A DNA stretch of 54,978 nucleotides. It comes from a virus. Positions 8,902 through 35,631 of the stretch are shown here, piece after piece. Position 1 is the stretch's first letter, and every line of letters begins with the position of its first letter. The notes beneath the pieces are model-generated. The model ran no database searches and was not told where the DNA came from. It saw nothing but the letters and a program-made list of their open reading frames with translations. The translations under genes and the position numbers were made by a program. The stretch is from positions 1 to 54,978 of the IMG/VR virus record IMGVR_UViG_3300027963_000094; one strand, written 5' to 3'.

Positions 8902-9189
8902 TTAGCGGCCACGACCTGCAGACTTCTTCACGGGGATCGCGATGGTTACTGCAAAGCCAGACATCTTCTTGGCGGCTCCGCCTTTTTTCATCGTCGCAAT
9001 TTTGCCAGTAGGCTTAGGCAAGGGTGGAGGCGCAGAGCCACGTGCTGGCAAATTAGCCACACGAGACTCAGGCATCACGCTGCCGCCTGACTTATATTTT
9101 TGAATAACGCTTTTGCCTTTAGCAATGGCTGTGGACTCACCCATTCCCATTGCCAAGCGCTTGTGCATGTTAATGCCTTCATCAGCCAT
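8902..9189 (-). CDS. Small basic virion-cluster protein with GG motifs
   Basis: This 95-residue protein starts at ATG 9189 and overlaps the portal stop by 8 bp (MADEGINMHKRLAMGMG). It is basic and low-complexity, with QKYKSGGSVMPESR near the centre, a proline-rich APPPLPKP and MKKGGAAKK near residue 70. The QKYxxGG motif is the same as in the protein at 3682-4146, which suggests a common partner or processing signal. It has no catalytic residues in a recognisable pattern. The neighbouring portal suggests a small head protein. Confidence 0.6.
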   Translation of the reverse strand: MADEGINMHKRLAMGMGESTAIAKGKSVIQKYKSGGSVMPESRVANLPARGSAPPPLPKPTGKIATMKKGGAAKKMSGFAVTIAIPVKKSAGRGR

Positions 9190-11722
9190 TTTGAGCTCCT
9201 AGAGTTTGTTGAATTAGATTCTGCGCTTCTAAAGCAGTTTTAACCTGCTCATACTGTAAGTTAGCGGCATCGCGCGTAAGGTCCGCTGACTTAATTCTTT
9301 CTTGCGTAAGATTGTTCTCAGTATTCTTAGCCATATCGGCTTGGAGTTTCTGAGTTGCAAGTTGCATGTCCTGCTGAAGCTTAGCAGCTTCCAATTGCAT
9401 CTCGGCTTGATCTTTGGTAGCGCGGCGCTGTGTCTCGGCCATGCTGGTTTGGATGAAAGCTTGAGTTGCGGGATCGGTAGGCGGTTGGCCTGACAATTGC
9501 TTGATAGCAGCAATGGCGTTCTGAATGATAGGTGGCAATGCCTTAAACGTCTCACCAGTATCTTTATGCACGTGCTGCGCAACTGCGGCAAGCAACTGAT
9601 CCGCGCCTTGCGGCAGTGTCTGCTCTTTCAAAACATTGAATGGTCTGTTCAACGCAGCGCTGCTATAAGAATCAACTTGGTTAAGGTACCACAAAGTCAA
9701 GTGCTGCTTGACATGCTCTAAACATAGCGGTATGAAAGTTGGAGCCATGATTGGATTGGCACCATACATGGGGTCTTGCAAGTAATCCAAGTGAACCTGA
9801 ATGTGGGATAAATGATCTTGCCTTGGGAAAGCGCCGGCGTGCTTGCCAAAAGTCATGGCCACGTTCTCCAAGGCAGGATTCATTTCCTTCACGTCGTTAG
9901 GATCAGGCAGCACCTCGTTGACATCAGGCAGCCTGATCTGCTTAAGGATTCGCTTCTCAACAGCAAGGCGGTTGTACAAGTCAGGGTTGGCCTGAGCTCG
10001 TGCAGCCAAAGTCTGGATCTGCGCATACCGTTGCGTCTCAGCAAAGATGTGAGGGTCAGACACTGGAACAATGTCGGAGTTCCTAGCAAAGTCTTCCTTG
10101 GTGACATCCAAGTCCTCAACCATGTCGCCTTTAACCTGCTCATCCAAGTACCAGTTATTCAACCTTGCAATAACTTTCAACACTCGGCGTTGTGAGTCGT
10201 GGAGTCTTGCATGCACAGCGCTAAACACCGCGGCGCCTTGCTCAATCAAAGCTTGTGTTGTGCCAACTGGAGCGTTAGATGTAATGTCTGCAATCTTCTC
10301 TTCGCTTGTAGTAACCACGCCTTTTGCAGCGGTGGTTAACCAACCTAGCAACTCAAGCAGCACAGGAGAGGGCTGGTTAAATGGCAATGGCATGGCAATC
10401 TTGCGAATATCGTCAATGCCCGGTGCGCCCTCAATCTCACTGACCTGCGTAGGCTCAACGACTAGCGACTGCCCTGACATCTTGGCGCCTTTAAGCTTAA
10501 GCATTGTAGGCGCGTTGGTAATATGCGCTGAATCAAGCAGTGCACGCAACGAGCCAGTAAGTGCTGCAGATAGGCCACCAATAAGATGCGGTAAGCCGAT
10601 TGCGTAAGCCCCCCGCCATGGAATAAACTTAAACTCGATCAACCAGTCCAGCTTGGTCATGGTCTTATCACCATCCGACCAGTTGCGATACAAGCCAACA
10701 ACCTCGGTTGTTAGGTCATCAATCATCAAGATGTACGGCGCACGCTTTGAATCTGAGTAGTTGTCATCATCAAGGTTTAGCCAAGTGTAGATGTGGTATA
10801 CACGGCGCACGCCGTCTACGTTATCCGCTTGGCTCTTACGACCTTCAATCTTATTGTTTGCCTTCTCGGACTTGGACTCTTCAGGCTCCATGCTGGCGCG
10901 AACAATATCAATGTCAATATACAAACCGGTGTCAACGCGCTCTTCAAAAGTCTCTTGCGTAATGTCTTGGACTTCAGTGACGCGGCCTGCAGTGTAAAAG
11001 TTTACAGCTGCAAAAGGCAAGTACACGTTGTCAATAGGCACAAACTCAGCGCAAGGCCTGCGCTTTTGGTCATCGTACCAGATCTTCATGTATTGGCTAC
11101 CACCAAGCGGCAACTGAGTTAACAGCTGCTCTTCCTCGTCGCGGTATTCCTCGATCTGCTCAGTAAGCTGCCAGTTCATGTAGTCGCGTTTACGCTCGGC
11201 GCGTTCTACCTTTTCATCCGTAGTCTCGCCAATGATCTTGGTTTTGACCGGCCCATCAGCAGGGAATAGTTCCTTGATGGCTCGAGCGGAGAAGTCAACG
11301 CATGCCTCAGCCATGAGTGGGTGGACAACCTTGCTGGCTCCGGTAAACTGCGCTCCGCCCGGTGCATCGTGGCCTAAGCCCGTACGACGCAAGCCTTCTT
11401 CGTATTGCTTATCACGCTCCTCGCGAGCTTCCTTGTCTTTCTCAATCAGATCAACGTACTTGTGAGCTAATTTGCTGAGGTCGTAACTATCAAGCACGTC
11501 AGCTAAGTTCTCGTAGAAGTCCGGTTCGCCTTCAGGCCCCTTGGAATCATCTTCCATTCTTACGATGGCCGAGCCGTCGGGCAATTCTTCTACTTCCGGA
11601 GTCTCATCTTCCATCTCATCGAACATGGTGAGAGCAGAAGGCCCAGCGGCTTCGGCTTCATCGTCTGACATGGGCTCGATAAAGCGATCGAAGTCCGGTG
11701 GAATTGGCATCTGTGTGGCCAT
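9182..11722 (-). CDS. Portal protein
   Basis: This 846-residue protein is the length of large podovirus portals. It has an acidic N-terminus (to ~residue 70), then LAHKYVDLIEKDKEAREERD and a DAPGGAQFTGASKVVHPLM block. A conserved-looking FSARAIKELFPADGPVKT region follows, then FIPWRGAYAIGLPHLIGGL and APGIDDIRKIAMPLPFNQPS. The C-terminal ~170 residues form a long helical barrel-like coiled coil (AETQRRATKDQAEMQLEAAK). Portals form the dodecameric ring through which DNA is packaged and ejected. Its position between terminase and scaffold is canonical, with only the giant gene at 11726-17296 inserted. A subtype assignment would need a profile search. Confidence 0.85.
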   Translation of the reverse strand: MATQMPIPPDFDRFIEPMSDDEAEAAGPSALTMFDEMEDETPEVEELPDGSAIVRMEDDSKGPEGEPDFYENLADVLDSYDLSKLAHKYVDLIEKDKEAREERDKQYEEGLRRTGLGHDAPGGAQFTGASKVVHPLMAEACVDFSARAIKELFPADGPVKTKIIGETTDEKVERAERKRDYMNWQLTEQIEEYRDEEEQLLTQLPLGGSQYMKIWYDDQKRRPCAEFVPIDNVYLPFAAVNFYTAGRVTEVQDITQETFEERVDTGLYIDIDIVRASMEPEESKSEKANNKIEGRKSQADNVDGVRRVYHIYTWLNLDDDNYSDSKRAPYILMIDDLTTEVVGLYRNWSDGDKTMTKLDWLIEFKFIPWRGAYAIGLPHLIGGLSAALTGSLRALLDSAHITNAPTMLKLKGAKMSGQSLVVEPTQVSEIEGAPGIDDIRKIAMPLPFNQPSPVLLELLGWLTTAAKGVVTTSEEKIADITSNAPVGTTQALIEQGAAVFSAVHARLHDSQRRVLKVIARLNNWYLDEQVKGDMVEDLDVTKEDFARNSDIVPVSDPHIFAETQRYAQIQTLAARAQANPDLYNRLAVEKRILKQIRLPDVNEVLPDPNDVKEMNPALENVAMTFGKHAGAFPRQDHLSHIQVHLDYLQDPMYGANPIMAPTFIPLCLEHVKQHLTLWYLNQVDSYSSAALNRPFNVLKEQTLPQGADQLLAAVAQHVHKDTGETFKALPPIIQNAIAAIKQLSGQPPTDPATQAFIQTSMAETQRRATKDQAEMQLEAAKLQQDMQLATQKLQADMAKNTENNLTQERIKSADLTRDAANLQYEQVKTALEAQNLIQQTLGAQNG

Positions 11723-23510: not shown

Positions 23511-23959
23511 CTAAAACTGTAACCATCCCTCTTATCGAGCTGCAGGAAATCTACCAAGGCCTTGAGGCTTTTGTCATTGACGCACCTGCTGATGCCATTG
23601 TCTTGGCGTCGTGGAAAGAGCAATTGGAATTGCGCATGGCAGCAGCACGCGCCCTTGGCCACCTCAGCGCATACGTTATTTACGCAACACCAAAACCTAC
23701 TATGCCAGATGAATACGAATACTCCTTAGATCACTATGGCTTAGACAATTGGCAAGCCGAGTGGGGTGATGGTGATATTGAACGCGACATTGTTGTTATG
23801 TATACCCCTACGCATCGCGGTTTTGACTACTGCGTTTTAATGGATGGCAATGACATTACAGCAACGCTTAACCCAGCCAACCGCAATGCGTATGAGGCGC
23901 ACATGTCAAAAGAATGCGCAGCCCGCGCTGCAACAGCAAATGATTATGCATATGACTAA
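23507..23959 (+). CDS. Hypothetical early protein
   Basis: This protein has 150 residues from ATG 23507, which overlaps the previous stop by 4 bp and has GGAGG upstream. The N-terminal half is helical (LIELQEIYQGLEAFVID). The C-terminal half is rich in Asp, Tyr and Trp (DEYEYSLDHYGLDNWQAEWG), with a strand pair around DYCVLMDGNDITATLNP. I do not recognise a domain. It may be an early host-takeover or accessory protein. It overlaps the MazG-like gene by 8 bp. Confidence 0.6.
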   Translation: MTKTVTIPLIELQEIYQGLEAFVIDAPADAIVLASWKEQLELRMAAARALGHLSAYVIYATPKPTMPDEYEYSLDHYGLDNWQAEWGDGDIERDIVVMYTPTHRGFDYCVLMDGNDITATLNPANRNAYEAHMSKECAARAATANDYAYD

Positions 23960-24359
23960 TTCAGAAAAGGTATTGGCATTCCGTCGCAAGATGGGTTTGC
24001 CAATCTCCACTACACCTACTCTGCTCTCGTCTGAGCAGGCCAGTTACTTTGCTCGCTTCATCATGGAAGAGCTTAGTGAATACCTTCGTGCTTGCGAGGA
24101 GAATAGCCTTGTTGATGCTGCTGATGCTTTGGTCGATCTTGTCTACGTCACCATGGGTTGCAGCCATGCTATGGGGTTACCTTTTGACCAGCTTTTTAAT
24201 GTGGTACACGAAGCAAACATGAACAAAGAACCAGCCAATGATTACATTAGGTCATTGCGCGGCTCACAATACGACGTCATCAAGCCCATGGGTTGGCAAG
24301 CCCCTGAGGCCATGATGTTGGCCATCATACAAACAGAACAACAGAAAGCAAAGCCATGA
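23952..24359 (+). CDS. MazG-like NTP pyrophosphohydrolase
   Basis: This protein has 135 residues from ATG 23952, chosen because it overlaps the upstream stop by 8 bp and begins the conserved region. It has the all-alpha NTP pyrophosphatase signature: EELSEY with E39, E40 and E43, and then VDAADALVDLVYVTMG with D55, D58 and D62 as Mg2+ ligands. VVHEANMNK follows. Such enzymes hydrolyse nucleoside triphosphates to monophosphate and pyrophosphate. Its specificity cannot be read from the sequence. dCTP removal would fit the dCMP hydroxymethylase cassette at 30615-33202, as T4 gp56 does for T4, but dUTP or other house-cleaning is equally possible. Confidence 0.75.
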   Translation: MTNSEKVLAFRRKMGLPISTTPTLLSSEQASYFARFIMEELSEYLRACEENSLVDAADALVDLVYVTMGCSHAMGLPFDQLFNVVHEANMNKEPANDYIRSLRGSQYDVIKPMGWQAPEAMMLAIIQTEQQKAKP

Positions 24360-25538: not shown

Positions 25539-27359
25539 ATGAAACCTGTTTATCTTGATTTTGAAACAATGGCTATTGGCCCACGGCCGGAGTATCCTCC
25601 GGTGCCAGTTGGCTTGGCCGTCTACGACCCTGAAGGTGAATACCCAGATGGCTACCACGCCTTTGGCCACCTCACAGGCAATAACACAACGCAAGCAGCT
25701 GTCAAAGCTATGATGGAGTTGATCTATGATAGTGGACGCGACATCTGTTTTCATAACGCTATGTTTGACCTTGATGTTGCTGAAACTCATTTGGATGTAC
25801 CCATCCCACAGGACACCACGCGTGTACATGATACTCTTATTCTTGCTTTTCTCCACGATCCTCACGTTCAGTCTTTATCTCTAAAAGACTTGGTTGTTAC
25901 TTGGAGCTTGGATATCCCTAACGAAAGGGATGAGCTGAAGGAGTGGATCCTTGCTAATGTAGATGAGGCACGTCGTAAAAAGTCTACATGGGGCGCATAC
26001 ATTTCTCGTGGCCCCGTGGAATTGGTAGGCAAATACGCCGCAGCTGACGTACGGCTTACAAGCAAGCTTTATGAGTATCTCATCGAGCAGGTTTTACCCG
26101 CACAGCAGGAGGCTTACCACCGTGAGGTGGCTTTGATTCCAATGTTACTTGAAAACTCCCGGTTAGGAGTAAGGGTTGATCGAGTCGGTTTGCAAAAAGC
26201 AAAAGAGCAAGCAGTAATAGATATTGAAAAGTGTAATGTTTGGGTTCGCGCATTGTTAGGTTCTCCTGAGTTGAATCTTGACAGCGATAAAGAGCTGGTC
26301 AATAGTATTTATCCCACAGAATACTGGATCAAAGATAATGGGTGGCCTACCACGGATAAGGGCCAACCTAGGGCAGACAAGGAAACCTTTGAAGAACTAA
26401 TCACCCATACGGAGTTAAAAGATGTCCTCAGATATAGAGCCAACCTATCAACATGTTTGTCAACTTTCATTGAGCCCTGGTTACAAGCTTCTGCATCTAC
26501 AGGTCGAATCTACACAAACTGGAACAGTGTACGAGGTGAGCGTGGGGGTACACGAACCGGCCGACTCTCCTCAACACCCAACTTTCAAAATGCGCCTGTC
26601 CGTTACCCGAAAGTTGGGATCCCACCCGACTTGGATGTGGCAACCCTCCCACTCATCCGCAGCTTCATCCTAGCCGATGAAGGTCATAAGCTAATTGCAT
26701 GTGACTTTAACGCTCAGGAGTTGCGTATCTTTGCGCACTTTGAAGGCGGTGCATTGATGCAGCAGTATCAAGCCGATGCTCGTGCTGATCTGCATACTTA
26801 CGCAGCAAAGATGATGACTGAGGCCAGTGGCCGTGAGGTGTCAAGGACTTACTCCAAAGGCGTATCATTTGCTATTCTTTACGGCGCAGGCCCTAAGAAA
26901 ATCAGTGAAATGCTGGAGATAGACTATGAAATGGCAAAGACATTGGTGGATACATATACCACCGCGGTGGCTCCGGGCCTCAAGACAATGCAGACCACCA
27001 TGCGGACAAGGTATAAATTGAACCAACCATTGAAAACCATTGGCGGGCGTCTAATCAAGATGGAACCGCCTAAGATTATCAATGGCAGGTTAAGAGAGTT
27101 TGACTACAAAGGGGTTAACCTTTTGATTCAAGGCTCTGCGGCTGATCAGGCCAAGGCCGCCATGCTGCTGTACCAAAGCAAACGTCAAGGCAGCAGGCTT
27201 TTGCTTAGTGTTCATGATGAGTTGGTTATCTCAGCTCCGGAAGAGCATGTGGTTCGTGAGGCTGAATGCCTAACATGGTCTATGTGCAATGCAATAACAA
27301 TGGATGTGCCTATGGTTAGTGATTACAAAATTGGTAATACGTATCAGGAGGTCAAATGA
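25539..27359 (+). CDS. DNA polymerase, family A
   Basis: This 606-residue enzyme has a 3'-5' exonuclease and a polymerase domain and no 5' nuclease. Exo I is YLDFETMAI with D7 and E9, Exo II is CFHNAMFDLDVAE at ~75 and Exo III is YAAADVRLTSKLYEYL at ~165. Polymerase motif A is ACDFNAQELR with D389. Motif B is RTYSKGVSFAILYGAG with R436, K440, F444 and Y448. Motif C is HDELV with H559, D560 and E561. The F444 position matches E. coli Pol I Phe762. This is the replicative polymerase. Exo and pol motifs are intact, so it is expected to proofread. It overlaps the next start by 4 bp. Confidence 0.95.
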   Translation: MKPVYLDFETMAIGPRPEYPPVPVGLAVYDPEGEYPDGYHAFGHLTGNNTTQAAVKAMMELIYDSGRDICFHNAMFDLDVAETHLDVPIPQDTTRVHDTLILAFLHDPHVQSLSLKDLVVTWSLDIPNERDELKEWILANVDEARRKKSTWGAYISRGPVELVGKYAAADVRLTSKLYEYLIEQVLPAQQEAYHREVALIPMLLENSRLGVRVDRVGLQKAKEQAVIDIEKCNVWVRALLGSPELNLDSDKELVNSIYPTEYWIKDNGWPTTDKGQPRADKETFEELITHTELKDVLRYRANLSTCLSTFIEPWLQASASTGRIYTNWNSVRGERGGTRTGRLSSTPNFQNAPVRYPKVGIPPDLDVATLPLIRSFILADEGHKLIACDFNAQELRIFAHFEGGALMQQYQADARADLHTYAAKMMTEASGREVSRTYSKGVSFAILYGAGPKKISEMLEIDYEMAKTLVDTYTTAVAPGLKTMQTTMRTRYKLNQPLKTIGGRLIKMEPPKIINGRLREFDYKGVNLLIQGSAADQAKAAMLLYQSKRQGSRLLLSVHDELVISAPEEHVVREAECLTWSMCNAITMDVPMVSDYKIGNTYQEVK

Positions 27360-27838: not shown

Positions 27839-28040
27839 TCATGAAAAAGGTTGCTTTGTTGCAAAAAGCAATAAACCTACTCATGTGGTAAGCCCCTTTG
27901 AATGGCAAAGCGATCCACGGCCTAGCATCTTTTTGCAAGACCCTAGATTTCGTACACGCAATGGCATGCAGCAAGTAAAGCTTGTTGTTGATAACCCAAA
28001 GCCTTTCTTCCCTTATACTGATACTCTGAAAGACAAGTGA
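27810..28040 (+). CDS. Small early protein, unknown
   Basis: This protein has 76 residues from ATG 27810, with an alternative ATG at 27819. It overlaps the previous gene by 29 bp and ends inside the start of the next (TGATG). It is compact and mixed (YDHEKGCFVAKSNKPTHV, then DPRPSIFLQDPRFRTRNGMQ) and ends in a charged PYTDTLKDK. No family is recognised. Confidence 0.5.
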   Translation: MQIMELIKYDHEKGCFVAKSNKPTHVVSPFEWQSDPRPSIFLQDPRFRTRNGMQQVKLVVDNPKPFFPYTDTLKDK

Positions 28041-28675
28041 TGGCATACTCAAACTCATCAATCAAAACATACGAAGACTGCCCTTACAAGTATAAGCTGA
28101 CTCGCATTGAGCATCGGCATGAGCCGGCAGGCGACGCCGCGGAACGTGGCAAGATGATTCACGCCGAGTTTGAAGACGCTTTAATCAATCTCAATCTAAT
28201 TCCTGATGAACGCAAGTTCTGGTTTCCTTACCTTGAAGAGCTTGTTGCAAAGAAAACACGCAGCGAGGTAGAGTTTGCTGTAACCAAAGATTGGCAACCG
28301 TGTGACTTCAAGGCCCCCGAGGCTTGGGTAAGGGGTATCTATGATGCTGTGTATTTCGATGGCGCCAGAGCCCACGTCCTTGACTGGAAGACCGGCAAAG
28401 AGCGTGAGTACGGTGATCAGTTAAAGTTGTATGCAACAATCATCTTGTCCAGCCACCCAGAAGTGGAGACCGTAACCACCGAGATTTGCTACATTGACTT
28501 AAACAAGCAATCACCCTACCCAGCGTACACACGCAAAGACTTTCCAACATTGCAAGCTTGGCTGTCAGCACGTGTAGGCAAACTTGAGAATGATGACGTC
28601 TTTGCGCCTAAACCGTCTTATGGCTGCAGGTGGTGCCACTTCCGCAAATCCAATGGCGGGCCCTGCCAGTGGTAA
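28040..28675 (+). CDS. Cas4/RecB-type PD-(D/E)XK nuclease
   Basis: This protein has 211 residues from ATG 28040, overlapping the previous stop (TGATG). The RecB-nuclease plan is clear: SNSSIKTYEDCPYKYKL with C14, GKMIHAEFEDAL with H41, and GIYDAVYFDG with D102. HVLDWKTGK carries D115 and K117, and GDQLKLYA carries Q127. The C-terminus has C196, C199 and C209, which with C14 matches the four-Cys iron-sulphur pattern of Cas4 and AddB. Such enzymes resect or cut DNA ends with polarity. No CRISPR locus is nearby, so a replication or recombination role is likely. It overlaps the VRR-NUC gene by 7 bp. Confidence 0.85.
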   Translation: MAYSNSSIKTYEDCPYKYKLTRIEHRHEPAGDAAERGKMIHAEFEDALINLNLIPDERKFWFPYLEELVAKKTRSEVEFAVTKDWQPCDFKAPEAWVRGIYDAVYFDGARAHVLDWKTGKEREYGDQLKLYATIILSSHPEVETVTTEICYIDLNKQSPYPAYTRKDFPTLQAWLSARVGKLENDDVFAPKPSYGCRWCHFRKSNGGPCQW

Positions 28676-28956
28676 CCGCGGTTTTGCTTGAGCGGCATTT
28701 GGAGACTTACTTCTCTGCAGCTTGCAAGAAACGTGGCTTGCTTACGTTGAAGTTGAACGTACGCTATGCCCGTGGTTGGCCCGATCGTATTGTGCCGTTG
28801 AAAGGTGGCGGGGTTTTGTGGGTAGAACTAAAGCGGCCCGGGGGTAAAACCTCAGCGCTGCAGGACAAGGTGCATAACGACTTGCAAAAGTTTGGCCACC
28901 ACGTCCACATCATTGACTCTAAGGAAGGTATTGACAATGTTTTGGGAACCGCATGA
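28669..28956 (+). CDS. VRR-NUC domain nuclease
   Basis: This protein has 95 residues if GTG 28669 is the start, which overlaps the upstream stop. GTG at 28630 is the longer alternative. It is a single VRR-NUC domain: LLERHLETYF with E6, ARGWPDRIVPLKGG with D38, VLWVELKRPGG with E52 and K54, and SALQDKVHNDLQ with Q64. This fold makes structure-specific endonucleases such as junction or flap cutters, and stand-alone copies are common in phages. It likely works with the neighbouring RecB-type nuclease and SNF2-like helicase in processing replication intermediates. Its 3' end overlaps the helicase start by 20 bp. Confidence 0.85.
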   Translation: MVTAVLLERHLETYFSAACKKRGLLTLKLNVRYARGWPDRIVPLKGGGVLWVELKRPGGKTSALQDKVHNDLQKFGHHVHIIDSKEGIDNVLGTA

Positions 28957-30334
28957 GTACCAGAAAGAAGCTGTAAAGTTTCTGGTGGAAAAAGGCTCGG
29001 CAGCTTTATGGCTGGATCCCGGGCTTGGTAAAACAGCTGTTGTGCTATCGGCTTTTAGAATCCTGAAGCTTAAAGGTTTGGCCAAGAAAATGCTGGTCAT
29101 TGCTCCACTCAGGCCTGTGCATGGCGTGTGGCCGCCTGAAGCTAAGAAGTGGGAGCAGTTTGCAGATTACTCAGTTGGCGTGCTGCATGGTGGAACCAAG
29201 GCTAAAGTCTTAAAGCAACAGCATGACATATATGTTATCAACTTTGAAGGCCTTGGCTGGCTGTCTTCGCAACTTAATGGCAAAGATTGGCCCTTCCAAA
29301 TCCTGACGGTGGATGAGATATCTTATATGAAAAACACCCAAACTCAAAGGTTTAAGACAATAAAGCCTTTGCTGGACAAGTTTGACCGCAGGTGGGGCTT
29401 AACCGGATCACCAGCGCCAAACAGTTTGCTTGACATCTTCGGCCCTCAGCTTATCCTTGACCAAGGTGCTACCTTTGGCCCTTACATCTCACGATTCCGT
29501 ACTGAATACTTCTTCCCTTCCGGTTACGGCGGGTATGAGTGGAAGCTGCAATCAGACGGTGAGGCTAGGATTCATGCGGCTTTGGCTGGCAAGGTGCTTC
29601 GTATGGCGGCGCTGGACCATCTAGATCTGCCCGAGTTAACTTACAACGACATTATGGTAGATCTACCACCTAATGCCAGAAAACTGTACGACGCCTTTGA
29701 AAACAACCTGACAGTGGAATTGAATAGCGGGAATGTAACGGCTGTCAACGCTGCTGTGGCCGTAATGAAAGGCCAGCAAATTGCCAATGGTGGCTCATAC
29801 TTGGATGATGATGGGAGTGGTAATGCTAGAATCTCAACGCATCTTCATGACGCGAAGACTGAAGCGGTTCTCGATCTGGTCGAGGAGCTATCAGGGCAAC
29901 CTTGCATCATCGGTTATCATTTTACGCATGACCTCGAGAGGCTTAAGGTTGCCTTTCCTAATGCGCCTATCATTGGCAGTGGGGTTATTGGTCGTAAACT
30001 TGATTCTGTTATTGATGATTGGAACGCCGGTAAGACATCAGTTCTTCTGGCTCACCCAATGTCGGCGGGTCACGGTCTTAACTTACAAGGTACTGGGCAT
30101 GCTGTCATCTGGTATTCGCTGACTTGGAGCCTTGAGATCTATGAACAGTTTATTCGCAGACTCTGGAGGCAGGGTCAAAAGAATCATATTGTTGTTCACC
30201 ACATCATGGCCAAAGACACCATTGATGAAGCCATTATGATGGCCATCAGAAGAAAAGATAAAACGCAGCAAACTTTGTTAACCGCAGTGCGTGATTACGT
30301 TAATCGTGATACAATCAATCCCGTTGACCATTGA
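28937..30334 (+). CDS. SNF2-like superfamily 2 helicase
   Basis: This protein has 465 residues from ATG 28937 (MFWEPHEYQKEAV), with GGAAGG about ten bases upstream. It has the Q-motif-like start, Walker A LWLDPGLGKT (24-33) with K32, motif II LTVDEIS and motif III GLTGSPAPN. The C-terminal lobe ends in motif VI IRRLWRQGQKN. The gap between lobes is short and there is no HNH or chromatin domain. Phage SNF2-like helicases act as DNA translocases in replication or recombination. The order nuclease, nuclease, helicase suggests a functional set. Confidence 0.88.
   Translation: MFWEPHEYQKEAVKFLVEKGSAALWLDPGLGKTAVVLSAFRILKLKGLAKKMLVIAPLRPVHGVWPPEAKKWEQFADYSVGVLHGGTKAKVLKQQHDIYVINFEGLGWLSSQLNGKDWPFQILTVDEISYMKNTQTQRFKTIKPLLDKFDRRWGLTGSPAPNSLLDIFGPQLILDQGATFGPYISRFRTEYFFPSGYGGYEWKLQSDGEARIHAALAGKVLRMAALDHLDLPELTYNDIMVDLPPNARKLYDAFENNLTVELNSGNVTAVNAAVAVMKGQQIANGGSYLDDDGSGNARISTHLHDAKTEAVLDLVEELSGQPCIIGYHFTHDLERLKVAFPNAPIIGSGVIGRKLDSVIDDWNAGKTSVLLAHPMSAGHGLNLQGTGHAVIWYSLTWSLEIYEQFIRRLWRQGQKNHIVVHHIMAKDTIDEAIMMAIRRKDKTQQTLLTAVRDYVNRDTINPVDH
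30307..30315 (+). promoter_or_regulatory. Extended -10 promoter candidate
   Basis: TG (30307-30308), one base and TACAAT (30310-30315) form an extended -10, inside the end of the helicase gene. The preceding CGTGAT also occurs before the TATAAT at 33362. It would drive the small gene at 30346 and the modification cassette. No convincing -35 is seen. Confidence 0.45.
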
Positions 30335-30345
30335 AAGGAATCTAT

Positions 30346-30618
30346 ATGCAACTTACCGCTATTGTCGAAAGACCTAACCCCATACAACAGGAAGATACTG
30401 ACATGTCAGAAGCAAAGCTACGCGCCCGTGCAAACAAAAAAGCAATCATTACTTTGGTTGCAGAAACCAACCCAAAGCGTAACAACACATTGTCACGTGA
30501 ACGTTTTGCTTTGTACCGCACTGGCATGACAGTTGCTGAATACATTCAAGCCGGTGGCAGATCAGGCGATGTGAATCACGACGCTGCTGAGGGCTACATC
30601 ACGCTTGCATTGCCATGA
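30346..30618 (+). CDS. Small basic early protein, unknown
   Basis: This protein has 90 residues from ATG 30346, preceded by TTGAAAGGAATCTAT, the leader shared by several early genes. A second in-frame ATG lies at 30403. It has a charged middle (EAKLRARANKKAIITLVAE), then NTLSRERFALYRTGMTVAEY and a Gly-rich DVNHDAAEGYITLALP end. The LYRTGMTVAEYIQAGG stretch could be a small DNA-binding helix pair. It ends 4 bp inside the start of the candidate glycosyltransferase. No family is recognised. Confidence 0.6.
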   Translation: MQLTAIVERPNPIQQEDTDMSEAKLRARANKKAIITLVAETNPKRNNTLSRERFALYRTGMTVAEYIQAGGRSGDVNHDAAEGYITLALP

Positions 30619-31526
30619 ATATCTTAATTACCGGCGTTACAGAGACGCATACCAACCATCCACAGCGTGCTAGCTCTACCAAGTTTATTTCCATCCCCGA
30701 ATTGATGGCATCAGCTTTTGGTCGTATGGGGCATCACGTTGATCATCGTGCCGTTACATCGGGTGAAGACCTCTCACGTTACGACAAAGTGTTTGTGTAC
30801 CTATACCCCTTGGATCACAATGCTTTGAACCCTGATGGGGCCTTGTGGGCCTTAGAAAGCCGCTTTGATGCGTATGTTTGCCTTGATGATTGGGCTTTCC
30901 AAAAGATCCTACCATCATGGGAAAATAAGATCGCACCAGAATCATTGTGTGAGCATACATGGATTGCGCCGCTATTTCCATGGGGCAGCACACAAGCCAT
31001 GGGTTTGCCAGTGGAAGACATTATTGCATGGGATCCAAGCCCGCTGTATGAAATGCCTGCTGTGCATCAAATGTCTTGGGATCGTCGCAAAACCGAGTGG
31101 TACAATGCATCCCTTTCAAAAGAGGCGCATGACTGGGCTTCGGCACAACACCTTGCATGGCCTATTCACAGTGTAGGTGGCAAGGCACTAGGTCAGCCTA
31201 GAATCCTTGAGTCCGATGTTGTTTGGCAGTACGGTAGCTATAAAGGCGTGCTGTGCCCTACGTATAAGCATGCAGGCTGCGGTTGGTGGCGTGTTCGTTA
31301 CTTGCACGCCGCGCATGCCGGCTGCGTTCTTGGCGGCGACCCCAAGGAGCTTGGCGTCATTGACCCATCATACGATTACACACTCCATGAATTAGAAAGC
31401 ATGGATGATTACCAACTTCAACTGACTGCAGCGCAGCAGGCTACTTACTTGCGCACCGCGTCGCTTGAAGACACACTATCAAAACTTGAGGGTATCTTAA
31501 ATGATCGTAATTCTAGAAGGGGCTGA
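30615..31526 (+). CDS. Candidate DNA glycosyltransferase (GT-B-like)
   Basis: This 303-residue protein looks like a compact two-lobe sugar-nucleotide transferase. It starts with strand MNILITGVTETH, then an ASSTKFISIPELMASAFG helix, GHHVDHRAV and SRYDKVFVYLYPLD. This order resembles T4 beta-glucosyltransferase (strand, Ser-Ser helix, Gly-His-x-Val strand, YD-x-hydrophobic strand). Near residues ~225-245, WWRVRYLHAAHAGCVLGGD looks like the GT-B acceptor loop that in T4 ends in a bound Asp/Glu. The end is helical. It sits directly before a nucleotide kinase and a dCMP hydroxymethylase, the T4 partner set. There is no detectable sequence identity to T4 enzymes beyond this order, so the call is inference from topology and context. 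Confidence 0.45.
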   Translation: MNILITGVTETHTNHPQRASSTKFISIPELMASAFGRMGHHVDHRAVTSGEDLSRYDKVFVYLYPLDHNALNPDGALWALESRFDAYVCLDDWAFQKILPSWENKIAPESLCEHTWIAPLFPWGSTQAMGLPVEDIIAWDPSPLYEMPAVHQMSWDRRKTEWYNASLSKEAHDWASAQHLAWPIHSVGGKALGQPRILESDVVWQYGSYKGVLCPTYKHAGCGWWRVRYLHAAHAGCVLGGDPKELGVIDPSYDYTLHELESMDDYQLQLTAAQQATYLRTASLEDTLSKLEGILNDRNSRRG

Positions 31527-32442
31527 TGGCGGGGGAAAGACTACCCTGTCAGAGACCTTGCGACAACGATTGCAGAAGGACAAGATGACCCATGTCGTAA
31601 AGCATGGTCCTTATCGTGGTATGAATACCGAGGACCTTTGCCGTACGTATTTTCGTGGCATGACAGCGGCGTTGACCTACGATGACCACGTCATCATGGA
31701 TAGGTCATGGCTGTCTGAGCCAGTCTATGGCAACGTGTACCGTAAAGGGGATAACCGCATTGATATGCCGCGCCGTAGAATGTTAGAGCGTGCAGCCTTG
31801 GCACGAGGTGTTGTGGTTATTCATTGCCAACCGGATTTTGAAGTGTGTATGCAAACATTCAAAGATCGCATTGAGGATGAGTACTTGGATAATATCAAAC
31901 AATTGGAGCAAGTGTATGAAGGCTACACATCATTGCCTATGGATACCTCACTGCCAGTCATCACCTACGACTATACCAAAGATGATATAGAAGAGTTGTT
32001 CATTAAGCTTGCAACCAAGACAATGACTAACAAATCATCCGGTGGCGGCGCCTTTGTTGAAGGCAATACACTAATGCTTTGCGATAAGGGGCCTCGTACA
32101 AATGTTAAGTCCACCGCAGCCGTGGTGCCTTTCATTAACTTCTTGGATAATGATGGCCCTAGCAGAATGCTGGCTGAAACTCTGGAGCGTGAGAATGTAC
32201 CTGAAACTGGTTTGTACTGGGTTAACACTCAAACTTACCAAGGCACACCTATGGATTCAGCCTTCATCAAACAACTGAAGCCAAAACGTATCTACGCCCT
32301 TGGCAACAATGCCTACACGTGGGCAATAAACAATGAAGTGCCGGTAATTAAGTTACCACCGCCTTTGTATCATATGCAACACTATCCCGACCAACCCTAT
32401 TTAATTACGGAAGCTGATTATGGAAATGCTGATTCGCAATGA
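31501..32442 (+). CDS. Deoxynucleotide kinase fused to uracil-DNA-glycosylase-like domain
   Basis: This 313-residue protein has two parts. Residues 1-~175 are a thymidylate-kinase-type P-loop enzyme: MIVILEGADGGGKTTLSE (P-loop 7-14), VIMDRSWLSEPVYGN as the DR-like motif, VVVIHCQPDFEVC, and a LID-like FKDRIEDEYLDN. Residues ~180-313 resemble the uracil-DNA glycosylase superfamily: TLMLCDKGPRTN where glycosylases have the water-activating loop, GPSRMLAETLE, LYWVNTQTYQG, then IKQLKPKRIYALGNNAYTW and HMQHYPDQPY. The fusion is not one I recall. A hydroxymethyl-dCMP kinase is implied by the next gene. The second domain may bind the modified base rather than excise it. Overlaps with both neighbours (26 and 23 bp) indicate coupling. 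Confidence 0.6.
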   Translation: MIVILEGADGGGKTTLSETLRQRLQKDKMTHVVKHGPYRGMNTEDLCRTYFRGMTAALTYDDHVIMDRSWLSEPVYGNVYRKGDNRIDMPRRRMLERAALARGVVVIHCQPDFEVCMQTFKDRIEDEYLDNIKQLEQVYEGYTSLPMDTSLPVITYDYTKDDIEELFIKLATKTMTNKSSGGGAFVEGNTLMLCDKGPRTNVKSTAAVVPFINFLDNDGPSRMLAETLERENVPETGLYWVNTQTYQGTPMDSAFIKQLKPKRIYALGNNAYTWAINNEVPVIKLPPPLYHMQHYPDQPYLITEADYGNADSQ

Positions 32443-33202
32443 GCCTGAGCTCATCAATCTTTACAACGTGCTGCAGCAGCATGGCACTTGGACAAGTCCA
32501 CGTGGTGAACGGTGCCTTGAGATTGAAAACTTTACTTACACGGTCAACCCCTTTGTAAGGTTCAATTCATTCAAAGGTCGTAACTTCAATGTGAAGTACC
32601 TTAAGCGCGAAATGTCTTGGTACATCAAAGCTGACCCGTATGATCTTAGCATTGCTGATCACGCTGCGCAGTGGGGCAAGATTGTAGCCAACGGCAAGTT
32701 GAATAGCAACTACGGCAGCTATTGGTTTGGCAAACACGGCGCTCTGCATATTGCAAAGTTGCTGACGCAGGATCCAATGTCCCGCCGCGCTGTGATTCCA
32801 ATGTACGGCACTGACATAGACCATATGGATATAGAGGCAAAGGATGTTCCATGCACGCTGGCCATTGAGTTCCGAATCAGGAATGGTAGATTGAACGCCA
32901 GAGCCATCATGCGAAGCCAAGATATTCTTTGGGGCATGGCAAATGACTTGCCAACTTTCAGCTTTTTGCAGGAAATTGTGGCTAACTTGGTTGGCGCCGA
33001 GATGGGAACATTGACAATATCTGCAGGTTCTTTCCATGTCTATGAGTCTCGATTAACCATGTTCAATGACATCATCAATACCAATATCCATGAAGTGCTG
33101 GTTGACAAGCCTCCACGGATTAACAGGTACGAGGCCAATCTCTTGGCAGTCAAATCCATTAACCCTACTTTTGAGTTTGCAAAATGGCTATCGAACGTGT
33201 AG
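32420..33202 (+). CDS. dCMP hydroxymethylase (T4 gp42-like)
   Basis: This 260-residue enzyme has the thymidylate synthase fold but T4 gp42 determinants. It aligns by eye with gp42: YLKREMSWYI, KLNSNYG, SRRAVIPMYGT (R122, R123), VPCTLAIEFRI with C145, MRSQDILWGMANDLPTF with R165, S166 and D176, then AGSFHVYE with H206 and Y208. The offset to T4 Cys148 and Asp179 is 3 in both cases. D176 replaces the Asn that makes thymidylate synthase choose dUMP, so a cytosine substrate is expected. The product would be 5-hydroxymethyl-dCMP, made with methylene-tetrahydrofolate. It is coupled to the kinase and followed by a short gene. Confidence 0.85.
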   Translation: MEMLIRNEPELINLYNVLQQHGTWTSPRGERCLEIENFTYTVNPFVRFNSFKGRNFNVKYLKREMSWYIKADPYDLSIADHAAQWGKIVANGKLNSNYGSYWFGKHGALHIAKLLTQDPMSRRAVIPMYGTDIDHMDIEAKDVPCTLAIEFRIRNGRLNARAIMRSQDILWGMANDLPTFSFLQEIVANLVGAEMGTLTISAGSFHVYESRLTMFNDIINTNIHEVLVDKPPRINRYEANLLAVKSINPTFEFAKWLSNV

Positions 33203-33366
33203 ATTTATCATTCGCTGTTCAAAAAGAACTTAGAATATTTGTTTTTGAACTTATTCGTGACGGTTATCAAATGGAGGATATACTGACGGCATTGGCCGCT
33301 CTAAAAGTGGAAATGGCTTCTGCCATGGTTTGGCAAGATGTAATAAGTACAAAAGACGTGATATAA
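33184..33366 (+). CDS. Small helical protein, unknown
   Basis: This protein has 60 residues from ATG 33184, overlapping the hydroxymethylase by 19 bp. It is helical and acidic (FAVQKELRIFVFELIRDGYQ, then EDILTALAALKVEMASAMV). Its stop overlaps the promoter at 33357-33372. It may be a small regulator or subunit, but nothing in the sequence shows this. Confidence 0.5.
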   Translation: MAIERVDLSFAVQKELRIFVFELIRDGYQMEDILTALAALKVEMASAMVWQDVISTKDVI

Positions 33367-33390
33367 TTCACGTTATGGGATAACCCCATA
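33357..33390 (+). promoter_or_regulatory. Extended -10 promoter with palindrome and 5' stem-loop
   Basis: TG-A-TATAAT (33359-33367) is a perfect extended -10. It sits inside the palindrome CGTGATATAATTCACG (33357-33372), which could be an operator. The transcript then has TATGGG, a 5-base loop and CCCATA (33374-33390), a 6-bp stem like the one after the 21871 promoter. Downstream is the TGACTATTGAAAGGAATT leader of the gene at 33422. Confidence 0.6.
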
Positions 33391-33421
33391 CTTTGTAAAC
33401 TGACTATTGAAAGGAATTGAA

Positions 33422-34132
33422 ATGTTAAATAAAATTCGTTGGACCAAGATAGAACGCAGCATCGTCATTGAGACGGCAGTGACGTTCTACAATGAAGGCA
33501 CCTATAGCCCAATTGCAGCAATTAGACAAGCTCAGCAAGTTGTGCTATTGCCCAATCGCCGCCGCACACTTGCTAGCCACTCAGCAGCGCCTGACTTGAT
33601 CAAATTGCTCAAGCAAAAGGCGGCGCAGGATGTGCCAAAGCAAAAGGTGGTGGAAACTACCACACCAGTGGAAATAATGCCTCCAGCGCCACTGGTAGTG
33701 CCTAAAACCGATGCACCAGTTGATCTCGTTGAGCAGTTGGTGAATACTATTACACAACGATTCATTCTGGGGCTTCGTGAAAGCCTGCAGATTGCCGTTA
33801 AAGAGCTTGAGCATGAGTTTAAGCTTCCAAGGCATAACCCTGAGTACAACGCAATTGGCAAGTCATTGCCTAAGGTAGTCATCATTGGGTTGCTGGGTGA
33901 TCAGGTCTACGCCATCACCAAAGAATTCTCTGATCGGTACGAGGTAAAATGCATTGATACTGATAGAGCCATGGGTATGTCACCGCCACAAGCTAATGCA
34001 TACCTTTTGATGAAGAACTTCATCAACCATCCGCTGTACCACAAGTACCAAGCATTTCCCAATCATGTTTTAATAGACGGCGGCATGTCAACACTTCGCA
34101 TGTGGCTCAATACTAAAGGACAAGACTTATGA
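33422..34132 (+). CDS. Early protein with possible DNA-binding N-terminus, unknown
   Basis: This protein has 236 residues from ATG 33422, with GAAAGGAATT directly upstream. The N-terminal ~50 residues (WTKIERSIVIETAVTFYNEG, AIRQAQQVVLLPNRRRTL) could form a small DNA-binding domain. A proline-rich linker (PVEIMPPAPLVVPKTD, ~80-95) follows, then a helical region and a compact C-terminal domain. That domain starts KVVIIGLLGDQVYAIT, continues with VKCIDTDRAM and ends GGMSTLRMWL. The GLLGDQ and GGMSTLRxxL blocks are familiar from phage genes without a function. It begins a new transcript with its own promoter, so it may act later than the cassette. Confidence 0.6.
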   Translation: MLNKIRWTKIERSIVIETAVTFYNEGTYSPIAAIRQAQQVVLLPNRRRTLASHSAAPDLIKLLKQKAAQDVPKQKVVETTTPVEIMPPAPLVVPKTDAPVDLVEQLVNTITQRFILGLRESLQIAVKELEHEFKLPRHNPEYNAIGKSLPKVVIIGLLGDQVYAITKEFSDRYEVKCIDTDRAMGMSPPQANAYLLMKNFINHPLYHKYQAFPNHVLIDGGMSTLRMWLNTKGQDL

Positions 34133-34341
34133 CAACCGAGGATTTTGTGTATACACCTTCATCAACTTGCATCACCGAAAGATGGCGCCGCGTTTACAAC
34201 TGGGTCCCCCCATCCGAGGATCCTGCGTATACCAAAAAGTGGTATGACTTCAGAGCCAGATTTGCTCGAGGCCTTGAGGCTTTAGATCAAACCATTGATG
34301 TTCCGCAGTTCATCTCTATCAAGAAGTGGAAGAAGCAATGA
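34129..34341 (+). CDS. Small early protein, unknown
   Basis: This 70-residue protein starts inside the previous stop (ATGA at 34129) and ends in the next start. It is aromatic and basic: STCITERWRRVYNWVPPSED, then YTKKWYDFRARFARGLEALD and a KKWKKQ end. It has no recognised domain. Confidence 0.55.
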   Translation: MTTEDFVYTPSSTCITERWRRVYNWVPPSEDPAYTKKWYDFRARFARGLEALDQTIDVPQFISIKKWKKQ

Positions 34342-34664
34342 AGCAAGCCCCTGACATGGTCAAAATGAGTTTTGATGATTGGGTAGATCTGCTCACGCAT
34401 ACTAACCACTTGGAACTGCTAAGTAATCCATACGACGTGTGGATCGAGGCTTTCCATGTAGGTAGTACTTTAGAGCGTAGGAACTGCGCGCATCAAATAC
34501 GCACAAGCATGGGGCTGGTTTCTTCAGAAGACTTTGATGATGACACGACTATGTCGGTCACCGATGTCAAGCAAATGCAAATTGGCTTACTTAAGAAAGT
34601 CTTGGAGATCTTAGAGCCTACCGCACAGACCCCGGCGGTTCCGATGGTGGAGGCAAAGCCATAG
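34338..34664 (+). CDS. Last early gene, small protein, unknown
   Basis: This protein has 108 residues from ATG 34338 (MKQAPDMVKMSFDDWV), overlapping the previous stop. It has an acidic helical body (HLELLSNPYDVWIEAFHVG, DFDDDTTMSVTDVKQMQIGL) and a proline-rich end. Its 3' end runs 47 bp over the converging gene at 34618-35631, so early and late transcripts read into each other. No terminator hairpin is visible in the overlap. Confidence 0.6.
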   Translation: MKQAPDMVKMSFDDWVDLLTHTNHLELLSNPYDVWIEAFHVGSTLERRNCAHQIRTSMGLVSSEDFDDDTTMSVTDVKQMQIGLLKKVLEILEPTAQTPAVPMVEAKP

Positions 34665-35631
34665 GGTTAGCCTTAGGCGCTGCAGGCTCATTGTACTTAT
34701 CCAAAGCGTATTGCGCTCCTGTGGCGCCTAGTCCTACCGCAAGCCCTGGGATTTGAAGCCCTGGAACCATAGACATTAAACCGCCAGCGCCGGCCAAAGC
34801 TGATAGCACAGCTCCGGATGTATCACCATTCATATAACGTTGATAAGCTTCATAAAAGCTCATACCAGCCCCTGCACCGCCTAAGGCTCCACCAACAAGC
34901 GGCGCTTTAGCAACACTTGCCAACTTGGACATAGGCCCTGGAGTTGCGTCAGCCAACCGCTTAGCAGCGGCAGCTTCAGCAGCTGGCATTGCGGCGTTTC
35001 TTGCAGCAGTGGCAGCCTCGGCTTCTTTGCCTTGCGCAATAAGTCTATCCACCAAAGACGGTTTGATTTGCCCGGGCTCGCCGGTAAAGAGGTCAGGCCC
35101 AAACTTCTTGGTCAAGTTCTTGGTAACTTCACCTTGGCCTTTACTGCGCTGATACTGGCCTGCGGCTTGTGGAACTCCACCGGCAATCTCTTTATTTCCA
35201 CCAGCCCAATTCTGATACCACTTGGTGCCAGAAGTTGGCGTCTTGGCTGCAACAGGCTCAGGCTGAATGCCAGCCTTAAGTAACTCTTCATCCCGCAGCT
35301 TTTGCAACATGTCTTTAACACGCTGCTCTTCTTGAAGCTTCTTTACACCTTCAGCTGTTCGCATTTCCTGTGTTGGAAATAACTTGCCCATACCTTTTTG
35401 TACAAGCGGGCCAGATGCGGCGCCTACACCAGTGGCAACAGCTTTTTCTTCACCCGGCGACAAGCCTAGTTCAGGAACTAAGGTCTTACCTTTTTTGCCG
35501 GTAGTTGGCGCAGTCTTTGCAGCACCAATTGGCATGGCAAAGATGTCATCGAGTTGGTCTAAACCCTCAACCTGTGATGTACCCTGTTGGTCGCCAAAAA
35601 TAAGTGCATCCAGCTTGTCGTCTTTTGCCAT
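34618..35631 (-). CDS. Candidate ejection/internal virion protein (third of cluster)
   Basis: This 337-residue protein has an acidic start (MAKDDKLDALIFGDQQGTS), a charged helical middle (TAEGVKKLQEEQRVKDMLQKL) and an Ala-rich helix (ATAARNAAMPAAEAAAAKRL). A C-terminal hydrophobic Gly-zipper-like segment follows (~220-300, GGALGGAGAGMSFYEAY and GLQIPGLAVGLGATGAQ). Such a membrane-prone segment in a late gene beside ejection-type proteins suggests a protein delivered into the host envelope with the DNA. No catalytic domain is seen. It is the last late gene and its stop overlaps the converging early gene. Confidence 0.5.
   Translation of the reverse strand: MAKDDKLDALIFGDQQGTSQVEGLDQLDDIFAMPIGAAKTAPTTGKKGKTLVPELGLSPGEEKAVATGVGAASGPLVQKGMGKLFPTQEMRTAEGVKKLQEEQRVKDMLQKLRDEELLKAGIQPEPVAAKTPTSGTKWYQNWAGGNKEIAGGVPQAAGQYQRSKGQGEVTKNLTKKFGPDLFTGEPGQIKPSLVDRLIAQGKEAEAATAARNAAMPAAEAAAAKRLADATPGPMSKLASVAKAPLVGGALGGAGAGMSFYEAYQRYMNGDTSGAVLSALAGAGGLMSMVPGLQIPGLAVGLGATGAQYALDKYNEPAAPKANPMALPPPSEPPGSVR

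Follow-up and report, generated by a model that had tools for sequence, protein, structure and literature searches.

In the glucosyl-5-hydroxymethylcytosine (glucosyl-hmC) system of T4, the dCMP hydroxymethylase gp42 is an enzyme of the thymidylate synthase (TS) family. According to the accessible part of PMC13390438, a TS-family enzyme of RB69-type phages forms 5-hydroxy-dCMP. The accessible part of PMC8670742 reports that TS proteins of modified and unmodified contigs are best told apart by positions 177 and 147, Asp177 marking the modified ones, and that an enzyme from a contig of the 5-carbamoyloxymethylcytosine type carbamoylates 5-hydroxymethylcytosine (5hmC) in vitro. For Stenotrophomonas phage AXL3, the accessible portions of PMC7504290 state that, out of 37 restriction enzymes, only two cut the DNA, namely TasI and Tru1I, both recognizing A/T-only sites, whereas the 35 that fail all have G or C in their site. 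The same portions read gp28 and gp29 as proteins of thymidylate synthesis and mention an additional ThyX-type gene, gp50. Here, a compact gene block of the IMG/VR virus record IMGVR_UViG_3300027963_000094 is compared with these systems. The window, i.e. the whole stretch of DNA analysed, comprises 54,978 bases and has no end repeats.

The block encodes a putative glycosyltransferase, a kinase fusion and a TS-family enzyme. It very probably represents an hmC-glycosylation cassette acting through a sugar-attaching enzyme unlike known DNA glycosyltransferases. That it constitutes the core of a pathway replacing genomic dC by glycosylated 5-hydroxymethyl-dC is considered probable.

Enzymes predicted to act on the nucleotide

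The TS-family gene (32420-33202, + strand) encodes a 260-aa protein that matches Pfam Thymidylat_synt (6.5e-18) and carries C145 as nucleophile and D176 at the place of E. coli N177 (hereafter D177). Its best matches in the Protein Data Bank (PDB) are a CMP 5-hydroxymethylase, presumably MilA, and the T4 dCMP hydroxymethylase, both of which come before any thymidylate synthase. Twelve positions, selected for a presumed role in the active site or in folate binding, were compared with those of characterized enzymes. The window protein is identical to T4 gp42 at all 12, including T147 and D177, whereas E. coli ThyA departs at 147 and 177 and the SPO1 dUMP hydroxymethylase at 127, 147 and 177. The SPO1 enzyme (gp29) has Asn at 177, the residue by which dUMP hydroxymethylases leading to 5-hydroxymethyluracil are recognized, where the window enzyme has Asp. 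This Asp and the catalytic Cys are found in all 69 distinct family proteins, the window one included. The folate site is also intact, as the window enzyme shares with gp42 D169, G173 and Y209, which we take to be folate-site positions and which do not vary among the 55 family proteins compared. The residues thus strongly support a TS-family enzyme that would act on dCMP and yield 5-hydroxymethyl-dCMP (hm-dCMP).

The gene located just upstream (31501-32442, + strand) encodes a fusion protein of 313 aa. Its first part (residues 1-~175) is thymidylate kinase (TMPK)-like, with a match to Pfam Thymidylate_kin over the cut-off (1.3e-8) and one to an NCBIfam dTMP kinase under it. Structural comparison, which covers residues 1-183 only and says nothing on the second domain, retrieves YorR (Z 17.3) and many TMPKs. 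Fold and gene neighbours support the proposed role of this half as an hm-dCMP kinase. In RB69, a phage with arabinosylated 5-hydroxycytosine, the thymidylate-kinase-like p045 (L235:48-596) is encoded near a TS-like gene and parallels the window kinase.

The second part of the fusion (~185-303) resembles the uracil-DNA glycosylase (UDG) superfamily. Its matches to PF03167 are weak (E 0.17 for the window protein; 39 of 55 family members at E <= 10, the best at 0.0011), the next family being matched by 9 of the 55 C-terminal domains, and no Pfam family exceeds the cut-off. A PDB profile search with this domain returned a single chance-like row and no UDG, and tblastn against phages with the domain alone gave a best E of ~3. 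AXL3 gp29 is related to the fusion across residues 2-300 (30%, 4e-38). In BFVD, the model of the fusion aligns loosely to gp315 of Bacillus phage G across both domains (TM 0.45, root-mean-square deviation 10.2, 338 columns), the best row being an unnamed 285-aa protein (TM 0.70). Phage G gp315 has a UDG domain over the Pfam cut-off (1.5e-12). The weak PF03167 matches, AXL3 gp29 and the UDG domain of gp315 therefore lead us to read the protein as a kinase followed by a UDG-like domain, the latter assignment being made with moderate confidence.

The proposed dCTP-depleting partner is a MazG-like nucleoside triphosphate pyrophosphohydrolase (NTP-PPase) encoded at 23952-24359 (+ strand), in an open reading frame (ORF) that is open from 23844, position 23952 being an internal ATG. 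The ORF 23844-24359 matches PRA-PH (1.2e-16), and its product is related to AXL3 gp30 (35.5% identity, 7.6e-25), the NTP-PPase whose gene adjoins that of the AXL3 kinase. A PRA-PH match is present in 23 of 25 contigs searched among the longer ones of the family; the two others probably end before the place of the gene.

The putative glycosyltransferase and its relatives

The putative hmC-DNA glycosyltransferase (GT; 30615-31526, + strand, 303 aa) matches phrog_14998, a family whose function is unassigned, in two stretches (1.8e-20), the best of which covers residues 1-95. It matches no Pfam family at E <= 10 and no NCBIfam entry, and its only two matches among PDB sequences are both chance-like. 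An AlphaFold2 model built from 32 sequences (pLDDT 85, pTM 0.85) gives SenB as top structural row (Z 16.6), with T4 BGT at Z 15.8 (279 residues aligned) and T4 AGT at Z 14.3. The similarity to the GT-B fold spans the whole chain, as 264-279 residues align at Z 14.3-16.6 to SenB, BGT, BshA, PimA and AGT; Foldseek with the same model ranks BGT seventh and AGT twelfth (TM ~0.4-0.57). The protein is thus predicted to have a two-domain GT-B fold, a fold that does not reveal the acceptor. In an alignment of 11 sequences, all have Asp at the position of D92 of the window protein, and 10 have Trp next to it; that D92 takes part in catalysis would be a guess.

Relatives of the GT are encoded by 42 phage records and by 512 stretches in IMG/VR. 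A search of species genomes returned 15 stretches, none of them a relative, so that it gives no clue to the host. In at least 24 of the 42 phage records, the GT gene adjoins a gene encoding a UDP-galactopyranose mutase (UGM). These records are those of 21 T4-like phages of Aeromonas/Stenotrophomonas, Erwinia phage FBB1, C48C1 and DSL-LC01, the pair of avDM4 spanning the record ends. The GT-UGM adjacency occurs in four phage lineages and in both gene orders (L106:4895-7077, L231:2937-5062, L104:8992-11128, L103:6001-8033). The 18 other records belong to 13 Gordonia phages, two Caudoviricetes sp., two Providencia phages and one Morganella phage; in the two that were read, BlueNGold and ctIqW946, the GT neighbourhood has no annotated UGM. 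A TS relative is present in all 13 GT-bearing Gordonia records, and both D177 and T147 are found in the TS of the seven GT-bearing phages read, the window included.

A neighbouring UGM hints at a furanose donor in the phages that have one; the window family would depend on a donor made by the host, which may equally be glucose. The open-access papers searched, mostly at the level of listings, yielded no earlier account of UGM or galactofuranose (Galf) in connection with hmC in phages, of UGM or hypermodification in Aeromonas phages, or of a kinase-UDG fusion. A broader proposal can be put forward only tentatively, as it seems rather less likely to hold than to fail. The GT would belong to a previously unrecognized family of DNA glycosyltransferases, with no sequence relationship to AGT and BGT, whose members add a furanose or another new sugar to 5hmC in the podovirus group of the window, in T4-like phages of Aeromonas and Erwinia and in actinobacteriophages. 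The UDG-like domain would be a quality-control unit of the pathway, eliminating or detecting nucleotides that are unmodified or carry uracil ahead of polymerization.

Gene order, proposed pathway and alternatives

The genes of the block overlap one another, the GT and kinase genes by 26 bp and the kinase and TS genes by 23 bp. They are preceded by a small conserved ORF that overlaps the GT gene by 4 bp and, from its TTG start, the upstream gene encoding an SNF2-type helicase (28892-30334, + strand) by 4 bp; at the other end of the block, TS shares 19 bp with the small ORF that follows. A TS search of IMG/VR gave 61 loci, of which L014, L029 and L059 were set aside because they have too little upstream sequence. 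In all the 58 others, which have >2.7 kb upstream, the SNF2, GT, kinase and TS genes are in constant order, and the alignment ends of kinase and TS, like those of GT and kinase, are <= 60 bp apart. The overlaps of 4-26 bp originally noted are thus borne out when the small ORF is counted, and the three genes are conserved as a block in related phages. All the ORFs of the block are under purifying selection, which supports their coding status: the median dN/dS is 0.166 for the small ORF (21 comparisons), 0.055 for the GT (20), 0.058 and 0.046 for the N- and C-terminal parts of the kinase fusion (18 and 20) and 0.086 for the TS (19), gapped hits and pairs with dS >= 1.5 being left out.

The pathway could operate as follows. 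Judging from its homology, the MazG-like NTP-PPase would turn dCTP into dCMP, both removing the competitor and supplying the substrate. The TS-family enzyme, as its active-site residues indicate, would use methylene-tetrahydrofolate to convert dCMP to hm-dCMP. The TMPK-like half of the fusion would phosphorylate hm-dCMP, a role suggested by fold and gene neighbours, the resulting triphosphate being then polymerized; the UDG-like half would perhaps, as a guess, recognize a competing nucleotide that is unmodified or contains uracil. Once the DNA has been replicated, the GT-B enzyme would move a sugar from a nucleotide-sugar onto the hydroxymethyl group. This glycosylation step, to which the fold, the operon and the gene neighbourhood point, is likely. 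The donor would need to be of host origin, since UGM went undetected both in the window and in the 25 family contigs searched.

The restriction resistance of the DNA of AXL3, which encodes a like fusion next to a TS and an NTP-PPase, counts in favour of this pathway. The D177 of the AXL3 TS argues for a role in cytosine rather than thymidylate metabolism, and this enzyme may be dispensable for dTMP, as the phage has the ThyX-type gp50. For the related Pseudoxanthomonas phage PW916, nothing on restriction or digestion was found in the accessible part of PMC9414467. Palindromes are not avoided in the window as they are in T7: the observed/expected ratio of palindromic hexamers is 0.93 in the window, 0.59 in T7, 0.92 in AXL3, 0.99 in a T4 and RB69 sample and, over 12.6 kb of Xp15, 0.85, the corresponding values for tetramers being 0.915, 0.739, 1.031, 0.908 and 0.91. 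This agrees weakly with protected DNA, as such counts depend on the host.

Several observations weigh against the glycosylated 5-hydroxymethyl-dC pathway. Some of them concern the GT. Comparison of its profile with that of T4 BGT by hhalign gave 0.033 over 56 N-terminal columns only, and blastp against AGT and BGT gave nothing below E 1, so that the GT may work like BGT or AGT, but membership of their families is not supported by sequence. Furthermore, its top structural row, SenB, is a selenosugar enzyme, and GT-B folds serve many acceptors. In Aeromonas phage 50AhydR13PP, ~28 kb separate the GT and TS genes. Neither UGM, with which the GT relatives pair, nor dCMP deaminase, which many relatives have, was detected in the window or the 25 family contigs searched. 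Others concern the remaining enzymes and the DNA itself. The MazG-like gene lies ~6 kb upstream of the block and its product has no blastp match to T4 gp56 at E <= 1. The checked TS residues fit a dCMP methylase leading to 5-methylcytosine (5mC) as well as a hydroxymethylase, the hydroxymethyl product being preferred because the GT needs a hydroxyl acceptor. The SNF2 neighbour is as constant as the GT, so that a conserved gene order among such close relatives carries little weight as evidence of function. AXL3 has no GT match at 0.01; hence, its resistance speaks for an altered C or G and not specifically for glycosylation. Window palindromes are slightly scarce (z -3.3 for hexamers and -3.6 for tetramers). 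Finally, no chemistry on any phage of the family of the window was found and, as no virion DNA of the family has been analysed as far as found, the product is inferred. Taken as a whole, the original prediction of a T4-like cytosine hypermodification keeps its cytosine-type active site, GT-B fold, TMPK-like kinase and NTP-PPase, a real gene related to AXL3 gp30, but homology of the latter to gp56 is not detectable and glucose is not specifically indicated, the neighbourhood of the GT relatives pointing rather to a furanose donor.

Among the alternatives, the one that survives best, although improbable, is that the cassette makes hmC or 5mC DNA while the GT glycosylates another target, such as a host surface glycan, the capsid or a cell-wall precursor. 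The glycan and small-molecule enzymes SenB, PimA and BshA are among its top structural rows, it has no sequence link to DNA glycosyltransferases, and UGM supplies Galf for bacterial surface glycans. This is countered by the tight association of the GT and kinase genes in the window and all 58 contigs, by the D177 of the TS in all seven GT-bearing phages read and by Lactobacillus phage ATCCB, whose UGM gene is next to those of a BGT homologue and a D177 TS.

Less probable still is that the TS-like enzyme makes 5-hydroxy-dCMP as in RB69, the GT adding a pentose, e.g. arabinose, directly at O5. Such an activity of a TS-family enzyme is on record for RB69-type phages (PMC13390438, accessible part). 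RB69 p048, the TS-like protein of this phage, shares D177 and has a thymidylate-kinase-like gene nearby, and the GT relatives lie near a furanose-making mutase. We take p048 to be the 5-hydroxy-dCMP-forming enzyme because its gene is located in the RB69 arabinose cluster. However, residues 169, 173 and 209 are N, V and F in p048, as against the invariant D, G and Y of the window enzyme and its family. With p048 as the sole 5-hydroxy yardstick, these differences therefore favour folate-dependent hydroxymethylation over 5-hydroxylation for the window enzyme.

The remaining explanation, an ordinary thymidylate supply in which the dTMP and dTDP needed for replication come from TS and kinase, with the GT as a passenger, accords with the annotation of relatives as thymidylate synthase and kinase and with the reading of the AXL3 authors (PMC7504290, accessible part), but is very improbable given that the TS of the window and those of the relatives read carry D177 and T147, that AXL3 has the ThyX-type gp50 and that its DNA resists 35 of 37 enzymes.

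Genome setting and comparison with known systems

The small ORF ahead of the GT gene, whose function is unassigned, extends on the + strand from 30331 (TTG, 95 aa) or 30346 (ATG, 90 aa) to 30618, with AAAGGA within 20 bases before the ATG. It was detected in 54 of the 58 loci, so that the region initially taken for a shared leader is in fact a small conserved protein gene. Its product (30346-30618) shows the pattern NPKR..TL...RF.LY..GMTV.EY...GGR..D, and the gene precedes the GT gene wherever detected. The shared promoter proposed at 30307 is not supported: a consensus scan of 28000-34800 found 18 promoter-like sites (shuffles mean 9.5), none of them at this position, which falls within the SNF2 ORF. 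Operon read-through from SNF2 and a separate promoter are equally likely. On the other side of the block, the gap after the small gene following TS is ~300 bp in some relatives (L003:3773-4075, L005:6376-6678) versus ~40 bp in the window and others.

The portal protein (9182-11722) is nearest to those of a Manatee Spring record, Caulobacter phage RW and Roseobacter phage CRP-901, which we take to be podoviruses, in line with the podovirus-like genome first proposed. The DNA polymerase (25539-27359) is closest to those of ctUtU524, PW916 and AXL3 (35-37%), siphoviruses according to record titles and papers. The genome thus appears to be a mosaic, with a head set of one kind and a replication and modification set common to another.

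If the proposed pathway is right, hmC hypermodification would reach beyond large T4-like genomes into a 55-kb phage group with a compact set of overlapping genes; this group is frequent in IMG/VR (61 loci with a TS, and 512 stretches encoding GT relatives). It would also provide a candidate DNA glycosyltransferase family, unlinked by sequence searches to known ones, with a hint that its donor sugar is uncommon. New sugar chemistries of DNA are relevant to defence by restriction, CRISPR and glycosylases and to tools for labelling 5hmC.

Like the T4 glucosyl-hmC system, the window combines a TS-family dCMP hydroxymethylase, identical at the 12 checked residues, with an NTP-PPase, a GT-B glycosyltransferase whose fold matches those of BGT and AGT, and a predicted nucleotide kinase. 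It differs from T4 in that its GT belongs to another sequence family, its kinase is fused to a UDG-like domain, its NTP-PPase has no detectable relationship to gp56, and its genes overlap in a single block within a record of 55 kb.

The 5-carbamoyloxymethylcytosine module (Xp15, Acinetobacter phage MD-2021a and the Effie type) shares with the window a P-loop protein adjoining a D177 TS and a PRA-PH protein nearby. In both Xp15 and MD-2021a, genes encoding a carbamoyltransferase, a PRA-PH protein, a short P-loop protein and a D177 TS lie together, and their TS are among the closest to that of the window in the phage collection (38.6% and 37.9%). These two phages have a carbamoyltransferase in place of the GT and a deaminase gene after TS; Carbam_trans_N has no match in the window, the control matching three of 14 genomes. 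Their P-loop proteins (160-165 aa) lack the UDG-like part and have no Pfam match below 0.01, but that of Xp15 is matched in structure by the window kinase.

The cluster of AXL3, PW916 and ctUtU524 has, like the window, an NTP-PPase, a kinase-UDG-like fusion and a D177 TS, here encoded by adjacent genes. Unlike the window, it has no GT match (AXL3 searched at 0.01), it includes a dCMP deaminase, and AXL3 has a ThyX-type TS. In Bacillus phage G, gp313-gp319 (L240:2259-7995) include a GT, a kinase-UDG fusion and a D177 TS within 6 kb, as in the window. However, this GT is AGT-like (PF11440), a dCMP deaminase is present, both strands are used and the genome reaches 498 kb. The cluster suggests hypermodified C in phage G.

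The Aeromonas T4-like phages, Erwinia phage FBB1, C48C1 and DSL-LC01 encode a GT homologous to that of the window, but paired with UGM. Lactobacillus phage ATCCB (L241:3992-7047) encodes in a row a D177 TS, a homologue of T4 BGT (31%, 2e-48) and a UGM, which makes it a candidate furanosyl-hmC phage. The arrangements found in AXL3, Xp15, phage G and ATCCB thus indicate that a hydroxymethyl-dCMP core pairs with differing finishing enzymes, the window family having its own GT at this place.

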